Assembly (NCBI GenBank): GCA_943789205.1
Contig: CALSTG010000001.1
Coordinates: forward strand, 310,001 to 374,000
Direction of reading: 5' to 3'
Source of the DNA: an uncultured Flavobacteriales bacterium
Lineage (GTDB): Bacteria > Bacteroidota > Bacteroidia > Flavobacteriales_D > Crocinitomicaceae
Length of the DNA stretch: 64,000 nt
Shown here: positions 6,470-14,098 of the stretch, in pieces
How the letters are laid out: every line of letters starts with the position of its first letter
How positions within the stretch are numbered: position 1 is the stretch's first letter
Program-made: the position numbers and the translations under genes
Notes under the pieces: model-generated
The model's input: the letters and a program-made list of their open reading frames with translations, nothing else
Databases searched by the model: none
What the model was told of the DNA's origin: nothing

Positions 6470-7924
6470 CCATTTGATTAAAAATCTCTTCCATCTTTTT
6501 TACCAGTTTATAACGAGATCCTTCAAAATTATTTACAATTATAGCAAATGCTAAATTCGACCCGGATTTAGAATTCACATAACCTGCATATGCTTTAACA
6601 TTACTAAGCGTACCACTCTTGGCTTGCATACGTCCTGAGGCACTTTGACCTTTACAAATATTTTTTAAGGTTCCTGAATTTCCGGCTACAGCTAATGTAC
6701 TTCTGAAGAGCTCACTGAGCTTGCTCCTATGAATGTGCTTTAAAAGACTACAAAAGTTTTCCGCAGAAATTGCATTTTTACGAGACAATCCACTACCATC
6801 CTTTAGTTTCATGCCCGATAAATTGACCTTACCCTCTAAATTTTTATAAACGGCTTCAATTCCTGAACTGGTGGAACCTTTACCATTATTATTGAATCCA
6901 ACAAGATTTAAAAGACCTTCAGCAAATAGATTCACGCTATTTAAATTCGTAAGCCTTACGATGTCTATTATTTTTTCTCCCTTGTGCGAATGAATCATCT
7001 TTAATTCTTTATAATTCAAGACATCAGAGGGCATTAATCGAACACCTTTTGGCTTTCCACTCACAAACGAAAATAAGGAGTCATTCTTCAGAAACCTTGT
7101 GAATTCTAATGAGAGCATGTACTCTGGATCATGCATGCTTCCCTTTACTGTAAAACTCTTGCGATTTAAAGGCAGAAAACCAACACCAAAGCGATCGCGA
7201 GAATACGGTGCGCCATATAAGTACGATTGGTCATTTCTAATATTTGCCGCGGTAATACTGTGGCGAAAAATCAAGGAATCATCTGTTGGAAATGTCTTCA
7301 AAAATTTAGCGGCCTCTCCATAGTTGTAGGTGTCAAAATAATACTTCACTGTATTGTCATAAAAATTAATACCACATGCTCCTGAGCCATAATAATTTCC
7401 CATATCTGACCAATCCCATCCATCAGGCACGCCTGCATAACCGAACTGCGATCCATCTGCTATAATCGAACCATTTATTGCATTAATACCTTGAGCTTTT
7501 AATGCTGAAAGCCAGTCATTCATGAATTCATATTCAGAACCCTCCTCATTGAAATATTTACTACCGAGGGTTATATCTCCTTCACCTCTTATATACAAAT
7601 CACCTTGTAAAACGCCCAAAGAATCGACCTTCTCCATTTATGTAAAGATTTGTTTGAGGCCTATATTCTGAACCGAGAACATCTAACGCAGTATAGGTGC
7701 TAAATAGCTTTGCAGTGGAGGCTGACATTAAAACCTTATTGCCATTTATATTTGCAAGCACAGAATCTTTATCAAGATCTACAATACAAATAGATACTGA
7801 AGCAGTACTTATTTTGAGATGTTTTCACAAAATTATCTGCTGACTGCTGCAATGAAATTTGGGCACGAATGAACAAGCAGTTAAAAAGGATAATGAACAA
7901 GGAAAAAAAACTATATTTTTGCAT
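6459..7924 (-). CDS. dacB: D-alanyl-D-alanine carboxypeptidase/endopeptidase, PBP4 type (two frameshifts)
   Basis: The intact part (6459-7637) covers the C-terminal 392 residues, including DGSGLSRKN and the KSGT triad motif (QAKSGTLSNV). The active-site region lies upstream in another frame: translation of 7640-7820 gives VLMSASTAKLFSTYTALDVLG, holding the SxxK motif (STAK). The signal peptide starts at the ATG at 7924 (MQKYSFFSLFIILFNC). Two single-base corrections, one A fewer in the run at 7822-7825 and one base fewer at 7628-7629, join all three pieces into about 487 residues with sensible sequence at both junctions. So the gene is complete in content but broken as read. It would trim peptidoglycan in the periplasm. 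Sequence error is more likely than a real pseudogene, since no other decay is visible. Confidence 0.85.
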
Positions 7925-8022: not shown

Positions 8023-9204
8023 ATGGTCGAAAAGAAAAAAATTAAGGTCCTAAGAATAATAAATCGTTTTAATATCGGTGGTCCGACGTTCAATGCTACC
8101 TTCTTAACCAGATTCATGTCGGACGATTTTGAGACGCTTCTCGTTGGCGGGCTTCCAGAGGAAGGTGAGGCAAATTCATTACATATTTTAAAAGAATATG
8201 GTGTTGAACCGCTTCTTATTCCTGAAATGAAGCGGGAACCCAACTTTAAAAGTGACAGGCTCGCTTTAAAAAAAATAAAAAATATTATTGAGGAATTCAA
8301 CCCTGACATTGTGCATACCCATGCTTCTAAAGCGGGCGCGATAGGGAGAAAAGCTGCCTTTAGTTGTAATGTTCCTATTGTGGTACACACATTTCATGGG
8401 CATGTCTTTCATTCTTATTTTGGTAAAATAAAAACAACATTATTTAAGAATATTGAACGTTATTTAGCAAAGAGATCTACTGGTATCGTGGCTATTTCCA
8501 ATCTTCAGAAAAAAGAACTTTCTGAGGACCACAAAATAACTTCGAAAGAAAAAATAGAGGTAATCCCTCTTGGTTTCGATTTGAAAAAATTTCAAGAAAA
8601 CCACAAAGCAAATAGAAAAAAATTCGTTCTAAATATAATATAGAAGACGATTGTATAGCCATTTGCATCACAGGAAGACTGGCCCCAGTTAAGGATCACT
8701 TCTTCTTTCTAGATGTTATTGAGTCTCTTGGATCCCAAACAAACAAGAAAATTAAAATTTTCATTGTTGGGGATGGTGAGCTCCGCAAAGAAATTGAGCA
8801 ACGAGTTCAATTGCTCAAAAATACAGGAATAGATATCGTAATGACTTCTTGGATTCTTGATATTGCTCGAATTCAATGCAGGCATGGACATTATGTGCCT
8901 CACCTCAAAGAATGAAGGGACACCCGTTAGTTTAATTGAAGCACAAGCCTCCAATTTACCCGTAATATCAACCGATGTCGGTGGTGTTGCAGATATTGTA
9001 CTTGAAAACGAAACCGGATTCATTATTTCTCGTAAGGATAAAGGAAGTTTTATCGAAAAACTAAAGATACTGATTGAAAATGATGAAATTCGAAACCAAA
9101 TGAAAAGTAAAGGATGGGGACATGTACATGCCAAGTATAACTATAACAGACTTGCTAATGATATGGAAACTTATTACAAAAAATTATTAAAACTTAATTC
9201 ATGA
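8023..9204 (+). CDS. Glycosyltransferase family 4, exopolysaccharide synthesis (frameshifted)
   Basis: Two open segments (8023-8643 and 8857-9204) plus the interval between them form one GT4 enzyme of about 393 residues. The N-terminal half has KVLRIINRFNIGGPTFNA and HTHASKAGAIGRKAAF; the middle, in a second frame, reads DDCIAICITGRLAPVKDH and FIVGDGELRKE; the C-terminal half has the nucleotide-sugar motif TSKNEGTPVSLIEAQA. Breaks lie at the A-run at about 8616-8622 and near 8868-8875, each fixable by one base. It is the first gene of the polysaccharide cluster and its stop overlaps the next ATG (ATGA). It probably transfers a sugar to a lipid-linked glycan; donor and acceptor are unknown. 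Confidence 0.85.
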
Positions 9205-10007
9205 GGGATTTAAAGCTTTTTATTTTTGTGGGGATTTCCATTGTTTTACTGAATTCTTGTGCGAACTTCAATAGTAATATTCTATTTAAAATTCCAAAAA
9301 AATCAAGTTTCGCATATGACTCAATCCCTCTTGAACCTGAGGAAGATTTTAGATTGGCCCCAGGGGATCGCTTTAATTTTTTATTCGGGACCAATAACGG
9401 TGAAAAAATCATTTTAAATCAATCAGGTGTTTCTTCAGAAAGTTTAAATGGTCAAAATAATAGCCAATTGAACCAAATGAGAATGCAAAATCAAAACAAT
9501 CAATTCACCTACCTTGTGCGTCAAGATGGAAAGGCGAATCTGCCCCTTCTCGGAGATTTAGTGGTTGCAGGAAAGACAATCTTGGCATTAGAAAATGAAA
9601 TTAAAACACTTTTATCAGAGAATTATATTAGACCGTTTGTCCAAATAAGGGTTACAAATCAGAGAGTCATTATTTTTCCAGGAAAGGGAGATGCTCAAGT
9701 TGTAGGGTTATCCAATGCAAATACAAGTTTGCTCGAAGTAATTGCCTTAGCGGGTGGTATTCGAGATGAAGCACGCTCGAACTCGATTAGACTCATGCGG
9801 AAAATAAGTCCAACAAAACGCGAAATTTATAAAATTGACTTATCAACGATTGAAGGTTTGAAAGATGCTCAAATGATCGTTCAGAGTAATGATTACATAT
9901 ATATAGATTTCAAGCCTAGACTGGCATCAAGTATTCTTCAAGAGATTGGCCCTTGGTTGAGTTTAATAACAACTGGGCTATTGACATACTCAATTATAAC
10001 CCCATAG
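9201..10007 (+). CDS. Polysaccharide biosynthesis/export lipoprotein (Wza-like)
   Basis: A 268-residue protein with a lipoprotein signal (VLLNSCANF, lipobox cysteine near residue 20). A Poly_export region follows (EEDFRLAPGDRFNFLFGTNNG), then SLBB-like segments (VRQDGKANLPLLGDLVVAGKTI and VVGLSNANTSLLEVIALAGGI). A hydrophobic stretch near the C-terminus (IGPWLSLITTGLLTYSIITP) fits the amphipathic or transmembrane helix of the outer-membrane Wza pore. Its start codon overlaps the GT4 stop and wzc follows after 3 bp, so the three genes are one transcription unit. It should form the outer-membrane exit channel for the polymer handled by the adjacent Wzc-like kinase. Confidence 0.9.
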   Translation: MRDLKLFIFVGISIVLLNSCANFNSNILFKIPKKSSFAYDSIPLEPEEDFRLAPGDRFNFLFGTNNGEKIILNQSGVSSESLNGQNNSQLNQMRMQNQNNQFTYLVRQDGKANLPLLGDLVVAGKTILALENEIKTLLSENYIRPFVQIRVTNQRVIIFPGKGDAQVVGLSNANTSLLEVIALAGGIRDEARSNSIRLMRKISPTKREIYKIDLSTIEGLKDAQMIVQSNDYIYIDFKPRLASSILQEIGPWLSLITTGLLTYSIITP

Positions 10008-10010
10008 ACA

Positions 10011-12503
10011 TTGGCAGATAAAGATCAAAAAATAGCATTAAACACTGAGTTTAACCCAATGATTTTGCGAATCATAATTCGCAGACATTGGTTTCTACCT
10101 GTGCTTTACTCGTTGATATTTTCAGCAATTGGCTTTTTTTATATTCGATATACCAAACCAATTTTTAGAAGCTCGTCTATTATTCAGATCATACAAGATG
10201 ATCAAACAAGTAATGTACTAGGAACAGAAAGTCTAATCTCTGATAAAAATATTTTATCCACAGAAATTGAATTGCTTAAATCCGATGTGTTATTCTCCAA
10301 AGCAATTTCAAAGCTGAATCTTGAAACTAGTATCTTCGCCGAGGGTGAAATTCTTACCCAAGATCTCTACCGTACTGCCCCATTTGAAATCATTATATAC
10401 AAGCTCTCAGATTCAAGTTTAATCGACAAAAGGATTGATATTAAAAAAAATAACGAAGAGAACATCACACTTAATATTGGGGGACGCAAATTAATCTCTG
10501 GGAAACTCAACGAACACCTCATTTCTAAAAATTTCGATTTTTTCATTCGAACAATCAATGATGAAAGTACTTATGAGGTACTCAAGGCCAATGATATCCA
10601 CTTTAAAATAAACAACCGCTCTTCCCTAGTCAATCGTTTTAAACCCTTTTTAAATATCAATCTAGTTGATGAAAATGCAAAAACTATAGAAATCTCTTAT
10701 GACTATTCCAATCCAAGACTCGCCTATGATGTCGTAGAAAGTGTGATTGACGAATATTTAGTTTGGGAAAGAGATTCAAAACAAACGGCAGCAAACAAAA
10801 CCATAAAGTTTATTGACTTACAACTAGATTCATTATCAAGAATCCTAAAACAATCAAAAGACAGCCTAAATGATTATCAAAAGCGCGTCAGGATATTAGA
10901 TCCTGATACCTATGGTGAACAATTATCTGAAAATGTCAACAACCTTTCTGATAAGGTTCTAAGTATTGACGAGGAATTGTATACGCTCCAGCTCATCAAC
11001 TCCAAAATAAAAAACAACCCTAACCGCCTTGAAATATACCGATTGATACCTGAAATGGTCGGTAAAAAAAGCTTCGAAGGGTCAGTTTTAAAGCAAATTG
11101 AGGAGCTGAATAATTTACTTGAACAAAAAGATGATTTATTGCGCGAAGTCACGAACGAAAATATACAAATTGTAATCCTTAATGAACGTCTTAGAAACAG
11201 AATTGCATCCATTCAAAAAAGTATAAACGTCATCAAGGAGCGACTAGAAAACGAAAAAAAGATACTTTCCCAAAAAATTGATGAAATCGAGTTAACCTAC
11301 TTCGGCCTTCCTGAAAAGAAGATGGAATACGAAAGACTGAAATATATTGAAGAGTTAAACAACAGGTACTTTTCCATATTTACGGAGAAAAAAATCGAAT
11401 ATGAATTGTCTAATGCTGGGTATTCAACATCTAATCGAATTCTTAAAAAGGCACAGCTTGCTTCACTTCCAATAAGTCCAAACCAAAAATTGATTTATAT
11501 TTTATTGAGTATACTAGGATTTTTAATAGGAATAGGATTAATTACACTTAGGTATTTAACCTACAATGATATCATAAGTGTTCATGATTTAGAAAAAATA
11601 CTACCTCAAGGATACGAGTATACTTGGAGCGGTTCCGTTATACAAGAAGAAAATGAAATACTCTGCAAGTCGTTGTAAGTGAAAACTCCAAATCACGCAT
11701 GGCAGAGGCGATTCGATCAATTCGGTCAAATATGAGCTTTGTTAAAAAAGATGCAAAGGTTATCGCTATATCCTCTTCGATATCAGGTGAAGGAAAAACT
11801 TTTGTGATATCTAAATTTCGCGGGACTCATCGCTGCTAATGGTAAAGAGAACACTGAGTTATTGATCTTGATTTAAGAAAGCCTAAAGTGCATCATGGTT
11901 TTACGTGTCGAGAATACCTGTGAGGCATGAGTAATTTAATCTCTGGTATTTCAAAAATACAGGATGTGATCAATCATTCTGAAATTCCTAATCTAGATTT
12001 TATTACCGCGGGCCCTATACCACCCAATCCATCAGAGCTTATTCAAAGTAATGAAATGTCAAAATTAATTAGTGAACTAAAAACAAAATATGACACCATT
12101 ATGATTGACAATCCGCCGGTCGGTATTGTATCAGATGGCATTAAAATGTTAGCTGAGGCTGATATTCCGCTTTATGTTTTTAAAGCCAATTACTCAAAAA
12201 GAATATTCGGAAAACGTGTGGAGGAACTCATAGAGGTCCAAAAAATTAAAAATCTTAACGTCATTCTAAATGGTATCAATACGAAAAGAGGGGGCTATGG
12301 TTATGGATACGGCTATGGTTATGGTTATGGTTATGGTTATGGTTATGGTTATGGTTATGGTCTATGGCTACGGCTATGGCTATGGATCTGGTTATGGATC
12401 TGGCGGCGATGAGGGCTATTACACTGATGATGAAATTGAATTGAGTCGTTTTCAAAAAATAAAAAGTAAATTATTTTCAAAATGGTGGAAAAAGGAGAAA
12501 TAA
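10011..12503 (+). CDS. Wzc-like polysaccharide co-polymerase / BY tyrosine autokinase (multiple frameshifts)
   Basis: The first 555 residues (10011-11678, TTG start) hold a Wzz domain, with transmembrane segments near residues 30-50 and 495-515 and a long coiled-coil middle. The kinase domain follows in broken frames: VIAISSSISGEGKTF (Walker A) near 11760-11800, DLDLRKPK (Walker A') near 11868, and IMIDNPPVGIVSDG (Walker B) near 12100. At least four or five indels occur between 11660 and 11920, and another at 12361. The C-terminus is a Gly-Tyr repeat followed by GDEGYYTDDEIELSRFQKI and a basic end (stop at 12503), which is the expected tyrosine cluster. With Wza it would control chain length and export. 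The number of indels in 250 bp suggests a poor-quality patch, though decay cannot be excluded. Confidence 0.85.
12289..12406 (+). repeat. Hexanucleotide tandem repeat coding for a Gly-Tyr tail
   Basis: Units of the form GGNTAY run from 12292 to about 12400. Seven perfect GGTTAT copies lie at 12317-12358, flanked by GGCTAT, GGATAC and GGATCT variants. In the kinase frame this codes for alternating Gly and Tyr, giving about 15 GY units and then GS/GY. One 7-base unit (GGTCTAT, 12359-12365) breaks the frame in the middle; a 6-base unit would join the segment to the tail ending at 12503. Six-base units keep the frame when copy number changes. Confidence 0.9.
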
Positions 12504-13030
12504 CAATTGAAGGCATCATATTGATTAAATCAAAAGTTTTTGAGGATGAACGAGGTCTATTTTTAGAAACCTTTAACGAAGATAATTTCAATAAGCTATC
12601 AGGTTTAAAAACAACTTTTTATCAAGACAACTTATCTGTTTCAAAAAAAAATGTTCTTCGTGGACTACATTTTCAAAAACCACCTAATGCTCAAGGAAAA
12701 CTGGTTCAAGTGATTAAAGGAAGAGCGTTAGATGTAGCTGTAGATATTCGTAAAAACTCACCCACTTATGGCGCACATTTCAAAGTTGAATTAAATGATT
12801 TAAATCGATATCAATTATGGATACCTCGAGGGTTTGCACATGGTTTTATTGCATTAGAAGACAATACTATATTTTCTTATAAGTGTGACAATCCTTATTC
12901 TCAAAAAGACGAAATGTCATTGCCCTGGAACGATGAATCGTTAGCAATTGAGTGGGGTGTAAAAAATCCTATTTTATCAGAAAAAGATGCGGATGCAACA
13001 ACTTTTAAACAATTCAAATCTCCATTTTAA
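12482..13030 (+). CDS. rfbC: dTDP-4-dehydrorhamnose 3,5-epimerase
   Basis: This cupin enzyme converts dTDP-4-keto-6-deoxyglucose to dTDP-4-keto-rhamnose, a step of dTDP-L-rhamnose supply. Motifs seen are the ITIEGIILIKSKVFEDERG start, the catalytic-His block LRGLHFQ (H63), VQVIKGRALDVAVDIRKNSPTYG, WIPRGFAHGF and FSYKCDNPYS. At 182 aa it is full length. Its start lies inside the wzc tail (22-bp overlap), so it is translationally coupled to wzc. No rmlA, rmlB or rmlD is in the window. This copy suggests the exported polymer contains rhamnose or a related 6-deoxy sugar. Confidence 0.95.
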   Translation: MVEKGEITIEGIILIKSKVFEDERGLFLETFNEDNFNKLSGLKTTFYQDNLSVSKKNVLRGLHFQKPPNAQGKLVQVIKGRALDVAVDIRKNSPTYGAHFKVELNDLNRYQLWIPRGFAHGFIALEDNTIFSYKCDNPYSQKDEMSLPWNDESLAIEWGVKNPILSEKDADATTFKQFKSPF

Positions 13031-13035
13031 ATGAT

Positions 13036-14098
13036 ATGATTAATTACGTAAACATATTCATTTTTATCATCGGAGGAATTGCAATCTCACTAATATGTAA
13101 TAAATTATTATTACGGTTTTCTGAAAGTTTGGGTATTAGAAACAAAAATGATGTAACGGTAAGATGGAGTAATCAATCCAAACCTTCTTTAGGAGGTATC
13201 AGTTTATTTATTGGCTTTTTATTTGGAACATTTTTATACTTAATGTTAGAACCTGACATAAATATTTTTGGAAATATAGAATTCTTAGGTTTGTTTTTCT
13301 CGGCAAGTCTTGCCTTTTCGATGGGACTGGCTGATGATGCTTATGATACCAAACCTTTATTTAAACTATTTATCCAGATTTCGTGTGGGCTTTTTCTAGT
13401 ATTTTCTGGAACTTCAATTGATCTTTTCCATAATGAGCTCGCAGACGGCATTACAACAATAGTATGGGTAGTTATTCTTATGAATTCTTTAAACATGCTT
13501 GACAATATGGATGGAATTACCGGAACAACCGTCTTATTTGCCCTATTGGCTTGTTTAGTGTCAGCTATGCTTGTAGGGAATCCCGGTCAGATGTATTGGC
13601 TGTACATTCTTGTAGCGGTTATCGGATCTATTCTTGGCTTTTCTGCGCTACAATATAAATCCTTCTAAAATGTTCATGGGAGACGCTGGTAGTCAGTTTA
13701 TTGGCCTTTTTGTTGCCTTCTTTACCATAAAGTTTTTATGGAACCTCGGGTCTATAACTCAAACGCATTCATGGGTAAGTTTGATTCTAACCCTTACAGC
13801 ATTAACCCCTGCTGCAGCAGATACCTTAACAGTTGTTATTAACAGACTAAAGGCTGGTAAATCGCCTATGGTCGGAGGTAAAGACCATACAACACACCAC
13901 CTTGTATATGCCGGTTTCAAGGACCGTCAGGTGTGGATGATTTTTAGCTTTTTGGGTTTTGGCTCTTTCTTATTATCAGTTGGAATTATCTACCTTGTGC
14001 TTATGAGCCGCCTTGAGGTAACCGTTTTATTTTTATTATACTTTTTAGTCGTTTTTGGGGTATTATACAGAAACACAATAAAGTACAAAGCCAGTTAA
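13036..14098 (+). CDS. WecA/MraY-family undecaprenyl-phosphate sugar-1-phosphate transferase (one frameshift)
   Basis: Two overlapping frames (13036-13668 and 13634-14098) together form a multi-pass membrane protein of about 353 residues. Motifs in order: KPSLGGISLFIGF, the Mg-binding GLADDAYDTKP, NSLNMLDNMDGITG, then in the second frame YNINPSKMFMGDAGSQFIGL and GKDHTTHHLVYAG. Removing one T from the TTTT at 13639-13642 joins GSILGF directly to LRYNINPSKMFMGDAG, exactly the family order. It starts polymer synthesis by loading a HexNAc-1-phosphate (or similar) onto undecaprenyl phosphate on the cytoplasmic face. It closes the polysaccharide cluster, 5 bp after rfbC. Confidence 0.9.

Follow-up and report, generated by a model that had tools for sequence, protein, structure and literature searches.

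A Gly-Tyr repeat forms the C-terminal tyrosine cluster of a Wzc-type BY-kinase and is common among its relatives

The window analyzed here, a stretch of 64,000 nucleotides, contains a hexanucleotide array that encodes alternating glycine and tyrosine. Judged by its coding sequence, this repeat is the C-terminal tyrosine cluster of a BY-kinase of the Wzc type (PCP-2a) encoded within a polysaccharide export locus. The protein is of a known kind, with a regular tail that is common in its relatives and variable in length. In our assessment, the best composite explanation, to which we assign a probability of roughly 60%, is that the tail serves as a ladder of YxY steps, that the frame breaks in the gene are assembly errors, and that the tail grows in blocks of 12 bases. 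Tyrosine-rich tails in general were already known, as were the (YGX)4 repeat of CpsD and the tyrosine cluster of Ptk1. A Gly-Tyr repeat tail appears to go unmentioned in the listed titles and abstract openings on BY-kinase tails and repeats, drawn mostly from outside subscription journals. A specialist may be surprised by two features, the 12-base register of the array and the missing glutamate of the active-site pocket.

A Wzc-type kinase among polysaccharide genes

The kinase gene lies within a run of polysaccharide genes, all on the forward strand. Upstream are a glycosyltransferase of the family 4 type (8023–9204; PF13439, E 1.8e-20 on 8023–8622), broken at 8623 and 8868, and a Wza-like polysaccharide export protein (9201–10007), which matches PF02563 above cut-off (E 9.2e-12, 45.4 bits) and SLBB models below theirs. 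Downstream, the same locus encodes a dTDP-4-dehydrorhamnose 3,5-epimerase (12482–13030; PF00908, E 3.4e-69) and a glycosyl transferase of family 4, WecA/MraY type (13036–14098; PF00953, E 2.5e-14 on 13036–13641), broken at 13642. Between them, the N-terminal Wzz/GNVR part of the kinase is unbroken (10011–11606); it matches PF02706 above cut-off (E 5.2e-10) and PF13807 (GNVR) at 24.4 bits, below the cut-off of 27.7. In a frameshift-aware alignment to genome G026, the catalytic domain (11607–12292) shows breaks at 11607, 11662, 11807, and 11853, and a stop codon interrupts it at 11921. Its longest open piece, 11927–12358, scores 100.6 bits against TIGR01007, short of the cut-off of 108.05; with stops read through, the whole domain reaches 148.4 bits and exceeds it.

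The syntenic orthologue in G026 is intact at 827 residues, with PF02706 above and PF13807 below cut-off and the kinase domain in the same chain. Membrane part of the Wzz/GNVR type and kinase are thus found in one chain, the window's own chain being broken. Compared with solved structures, this orthologue is most similar to E. coli K30 Wzc (7nhr, E 1e-42), in an alignment that reaches the tyrosine tail. With patterns of our own making, the 157 loci that have a whole kinase domain yielded 156 matches for Walker A, 148 for A', 152 for B, and 151 for ExxRxxR; on a shorter cut of the domain the counts for A, A', and B were 87, 145, and 146 of 158, Walker A probably having been clipped. The pieces preserved in the window read SGEGKTF, DLDLRKP, MIDNPP, and EAIRSIR. 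Family models, motifs, and the Wza-like and sugar-gene neighbors agree with what an earlier note on this DNA had proposed from the letters: a BY-kinase tyrosine cluster in a polysaccharide context. A search of the genome for LMW-PTP returned one match, at C1:1454776, far from the polysaccharide locus.

Composition of the array

Eleven Gly-Tyr units (12293–12358) continue in frame from the end of the kinase domain: GGCTAT, GGTTAT, GGATAC, and GGCTAT at 12293–12316, then seven perfect copies of GGTTAT at 12317–12358. A unit of seven bases, GGTCTAT (12359–12365), which is probably an assembly error, shifts the tail to the next frame, where further Gly-Tyr and Gly-Ser units follow (12366–12401; GGCTAC, GGCTAT, GGCTAT, GGATCT, GGTTAT, GGATCT). 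The distal tail (12402–12503) consists of an acidic GYYTDDE and then a basic end with two tryptophans, a layout similar to that of relatives, and closes with the stop codon at 12501–12503. In all there are 18 tyrosines, 11 ahead of the seven-base unit and 7 from that unit on. The earlier count of seven GGTTAT copies with variant units, about 18 tyrosines, and a single frame-breaking unit is therefore correct.

TRF reports three tandem arrays in the window, of which this one has the top score (132; 16.8 copies of 6 bases). The run of seven identical units is longer than expected from how the gene's unbroken part uses its Gly and Tyr codons (p = 0.00024), and is only a mild excess over shuffles of the array's own codons (p = 0.038). 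Relative to the G026 orthologue, the array has pN 0 and pS 0.68 over 22 codons, a pS that is near saturation.

Frame breaks in the kinase and its neighbors

Proteins from 80 kb of G026 were aligned to the window in a frameshift-aware manner, and internal breaks were counted. Twelve were found, at 7629, 7804, 8623, 8868, 11607, 11662, 11807, 11853, 12359, 13642, 18490, and 29640; ten further frame events were left out by eye, either because they coincide with stop-to-stop frame ends (5386, 17038, 26600, 27672, 55677, 58881, 63615, 63889) or because the gene junction in which they lie aligned badly (9129, 9160). Ten of the 12 breaks fall within 7.6–13.7 kb, which spans the polysaccharide genes and an adjoining gene, and ten of the 12 are of type +1. 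The kinase itself has five breaks within 753 bases in addition to its stop, its first 1596 bases being spared.

Most likely, the seven-base unit and the breaks upstream of it are consensus errors of the assembly. Such a burst fits a poor long-read consensus, perhaps—and here we guess at the cause—one arising from differences in polysaccharide loci among the strains of one population. Were the strain to have truly lost its kinase, leaving the repeat as a pseudogene relic, one would likewise see five breaks and a stop crowded into 753 bases and neighboring genes broken as well. Nonetheless, decay strikes us as quite unlikely, since the breaks form a local burst dominated by one type, with the first part of the gene intact and just two of the 12 breaks outside 7.6–13.7 kb. 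Amino acids are also conserved: the broken part of the kinase has pN 0.106 and pS 0.778 against G026 (pS near saturation; decay of very recent date would look no different), compared with pN 0.196 in the unbroken part and 0.057–0.253 in five neighbor genes, of which one is itself broken. L038, the genome's second BY-kinase, has an open frame of 826 residues.

An on/off switch at 12359–12365, as the earlier note had envisaged, finds no footing in these data. With four breaks and a stop already upstream, a switch at 12359 would be idle, and none of the arrays inspected among relatives' tails is frame-broken; one (L041) has a point stop, and a few are ended by contig ends. A frame break in the window locus is therefore not to be taken as a switch at face value. 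The point stop of L041 (genome G051, about 2780–2830) is a TGA where a glycine codon is expected in the Gly-Tyr array. Contigs end inside the kinase gene in L009 (G014:C104, within the repeat) and in L028/L055 (G018:C26), such that some draft assemblies may lose tails of this sort.

Gly-Tyr tails among related kinases

Comparison of the genes indicates that the Gly-Tyr tail is common among relatives and that its protein sequence is conserved with synonymous variation. Three consecutive Gly-Tyr units occur in 141 of 158 loci (about class level) versus 3 of 36 other-class loci, the latter hand-picked among the matches listed. Of the 158, 83 are marked as same class or nearer (82, plus L147 of the same order), and 71 of these have the three units; the remaining 75 are 74 named records, presumed to be of the class, and L150, which belongs to another class. 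Moving L150, with its three units, across raises the tally for other classes to 4 of 37. Even among the 32 same-class-or-nearer loci that were found by a tail-free query, 26 have three units in succession.

Since the best matches were chosen, near relatives are over-represented in these samples. Within the genus, 42 of 61 genomes (own included) were matched by a tail-containing query, which may favor Gly-Tyr tails, and 51 of 53 places were examined, leaving out the window gene and one at a contig end (G040:C105). A tail-free domain query supplied the best 80 of more than 590 named-record loci and the 30 best of a phylum sample of 198 genomes. From these 110 we dropped L066, L067, L068, L091, and L146 as duplicates of genus rows, L069 at a contig end, and L087, which was removed as a duplicate by contig yet is a different kinase with 5 GY units. 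The 154 tails are thus 51 plus 103; 40 further loci were taken from the same 198-genome phylum sample, and four of this further set complete the 158. L009, cut within its array, and L041, with the stop in its array, were kept in the counts, and the own-genome stretches L061–L065 were not used. Three MAGs carry labels that look doubtful—Chryseobacterium gleum (L067), Chitinophaga pinensis (L070), and Actinomyces viscosus (L080)—because their kinases resemble those of Flavobacteriales records.

All 51 genus loci have tyrosine-rich ends, with 3 to 18 GY units, and over the full set of tails 148 of 154 have at least three such units and six have fewer. The median tail has 11 tyrosines (n = 154) and the richest has 20, successive tyrosines being spaced by exactly two residues in 1121 of 1528 steps. 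In 141 of 154 tails the last tyrosine of the cluster is followed within six residues by an acidic one, and all 134 tails long enough to judge have a net basic distal end. Among the exceptions are L112, L172, and L173, whose tyrosine-rich ends lack the repeat, and L082, whose end is very short. Other-class loci mostly have tyrosine clusters of a different pattern, for example SYYKYYYYYS, with 5–15 tyrosines.

A putative ladder for stepwise autophosphorylation

The point of reference is E. coli Wzc. Two accounts describe the tail of one subunit entering the active site of the next, with phosphorylation proceeding from the C-terminal side and the octamer dissolving after the fourth step (PMC8285477, PMC11986026). 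The tyrosine two residues before the one in the active site is mostly pocket-bound, and the YxY arrangement is named a ratchet in the second account (PMC11986026). By analogy, the Gly-Tyr tail would be a long YxY ladder for stepwise autophosphorylation, its tyrosines entering the neighboring subunit's active site one at a time. Since Gly-Tyr units in succession keep the YxY series unbroken, a longer ladder is the simplest reading. Each added unit would then allow a further phosphorylation before the octamer comes apart, and tail length would bear on the persistence of the polymerase complex. Counting against the fit are the six tails with fewer than three GY units and the clusters that lack the repeat altogether (such as L112, L172, and L173).

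The active-site pocket adds a complication. E675 of E. coli K30 Wzc is a pocket glutamate thought to reject phosphotyrosine (PMC11986026). An acidic counterpart is present in none of the 158 loci versus 8 of the 36 other-class loci; the column holds Phe in 103 and Met in 41 of the 158, with Arg or Lys two residues before it in 151, in a helix whose alignment is uncertain by a residue or two. Consequently, the ratchet may be gated differently in these kinases or not at all, or the alignment may be off.

Within the tail, glycine is no freer to vary than tyrosine: 80 of the 1121 YxY steps have a residue other than Gly at x, and Tyr is replaced in 71 YGxGY places. Neither a need for tyrosines nor the ladder is by itself enough to account for this. 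Moreover, as four phosphorylations dissolve the E. coli octamer, 18 tyrosines may exceed need. One could imagine instead a sticky, low-complexity tail, with tyrosines as stickers and glycines as spacers, through which the kinase would cluster or its partners dock, phosphorylation acting as a solubility switch. Up to 20 tyrosines compared with four functional steps in E. coli Wzc, glycines as constrained as tyrosines, and a pocket without an acidic residue would all be at home in such a model. On balance we think it unlikely: the two-residue spacing seen in 1121 of 1528 steps is, it would seem, stricter than stickiness should need, and other-class kinases have 5–15 tyrosines in another order. 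Under the preferred reading, a regular ladder of widely differing length in related species would make a graded set in which step number could be related to octamer life and to polymer length.

Comparison with characterized tails

Like E. coli K30 Wzc, the kinases described here have the order Wzz, kinase, tyrosine tail, along with the Walker motifs, ExxRxxR, and YxY spacing. Unlike it, they lack an acid at the E675 position and usually carry, beyond the final tyrosine, an acidic motif and a basic end. Five tyrosines are phosphorylated in the K30 protein, and N711 interrupts its YxY series, compared with up to 18 continuous Gly-Tyr units here.

The CpsD capsule autokinase of S. pneumoniae reportedly has a (YGX)4 repeat at its C-terminus. 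It is alike in placing repeated Tyr-Gly units at the end of a capsule autokinase and unlike in having a repeat of three residues in four copies. A further difference is that the CpsD kinase is separate from its membrane partner CpsC (PMC4574921), in contrast to the single chain here.

P. gingivalis belongs to the same phylum as the window organism, and its Ptk1 is a single-chain BY-kinase as here. Six tyrosines within 16 residues of Ptk1 are reported to be autophosphorylated (PMC8863745), a shorter cluster than those described above, and the kinase is needed for exopolysaccharide (PMC8863745, PMC4082711). VpsO of V. cholerae is likewise a BY-kinase with a tail, although one with six tail tyrosines at irregular spacing. 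Its phosphorylated tyrosine tail governs oligomerization, and tail phosphorylation represses polysaccharide production (PMC7485978). Depending on the system, phosphorylating the tail acts in one direction or the other (PMC7485978), a further caution for the ladder reading.

How the number of units changes

Variability in unit number, predicted from the repeat itself, is evident when species are compared: the GY count runs from 1 to 18 over 154 tails, and from 3 to 17 in the 25 genus loci nearest the window gene. Even close pairs can differ. For instance, L019 and L025 are 97.4% identical in kinase-domain DNA (570 bases) and have 9 versus 7 GY units, and L012 and L016 are 96.8% identical with 7 versus 6. 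Other pairs at 90–95% identity have the same number (L015/L018, L144/L148, L035/L036, L113/L117); the pair L009/L011 was not counted, L009 being truncated.

The order of synonymous codons along the arrays offers a clue to mechanism. In 123 arrays of at least four units, window array excluded, identity between units was scored by lag and compared with codon shuffles. Neighboring units are depleted for identity at lag one (166 of 776 identical, 187 expected, z −2.2), and units two apart are enriched (221 of 653, 157 expected, z 7.0). The remaining lags of the full set gave z 3.1 at three, 3.7 at four, and −2.0 at five, the enrichment at lag three running counter to a pure 12-base register. Thinning to kinase domains less than 80, 70, and 60% identical by ungapped comparison left 85, 54, and 29 arrays, in which lag two gave z 6.5, 5.6, and 3.7, lag one −2.4, −1.6, and 0.0, and lag three 2.6, 0.3, and 0.4, respectively. 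In Gly and Tyr codons outside the array there was no lag effect (z −1.3 to 1.1).

This pattern suggests that units are for the most part gained or lost as 12-base blocks, adding or removing two tyrosines per step. Selection against slippage-prone perfect runs is an alternative to 12-base growth for the lag pattern, and the data do not separate the two. If growth by blocks is correct, the synonymous 12-base register is a measurable trace of how the tail has grown. More ambitiously, the tail in capsule kinases of the class might count phosphorylations by its length. Its ladder, with about 18 steps at most, would be gated by an aromatic and basic pocket in place of the pocket glutamate known from E. 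coli Wzc, and the number of steps would set octamer life and through it polymer length, with growth by two tyrosines at a time through 12-base duplications. So specific a chain, pieced together from comparison of genes, seems to us rather doubtful.

Plain slippage by hexanucleotides, which the earlier note had favored, does not emerge as the general mode, given that most arrays mix synonymous codons and show a 12-base register. A contingency locus, in which 6-base replication slippage tunes tyrosine number and the seven-base unit switches the kinase off and on, is very improbable. It would account for the seven identical units in the window and the seven GGTTAT copies of L038, for the 8 of 51 genus arrays in which the identical run is longer than codon use gives (p < 0.05), and for close species that differ, such as L019 and L025. 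However, relatives do not keep a long perfect repeat, runs of at least five identical units occurring in just 10 of 123 arrays, and adjacent identical units are somewhat depleted rather than enriched (with z reaching 0.0 in the most thinned set). Also against it stand the breaks and stop upstream of 12359, the unbroken frames of relatives' arrays, and a MutS with an open frame of 894 residues. That open MutS frame likewise leaves loss of mismatch repair unsupported as a source of homogeneous arrays. On gene conversion between the genome's two kinases, the 48 identical bases that they share are uninformative, being mostly GGTTAT itself. The window array and that of L038 are among the more homogeneous; L038 (G000:C1:2022500–2026200) has its seven GGTTAT copies uninterrupted, a run that the similar G026 kinase L045 does not have.
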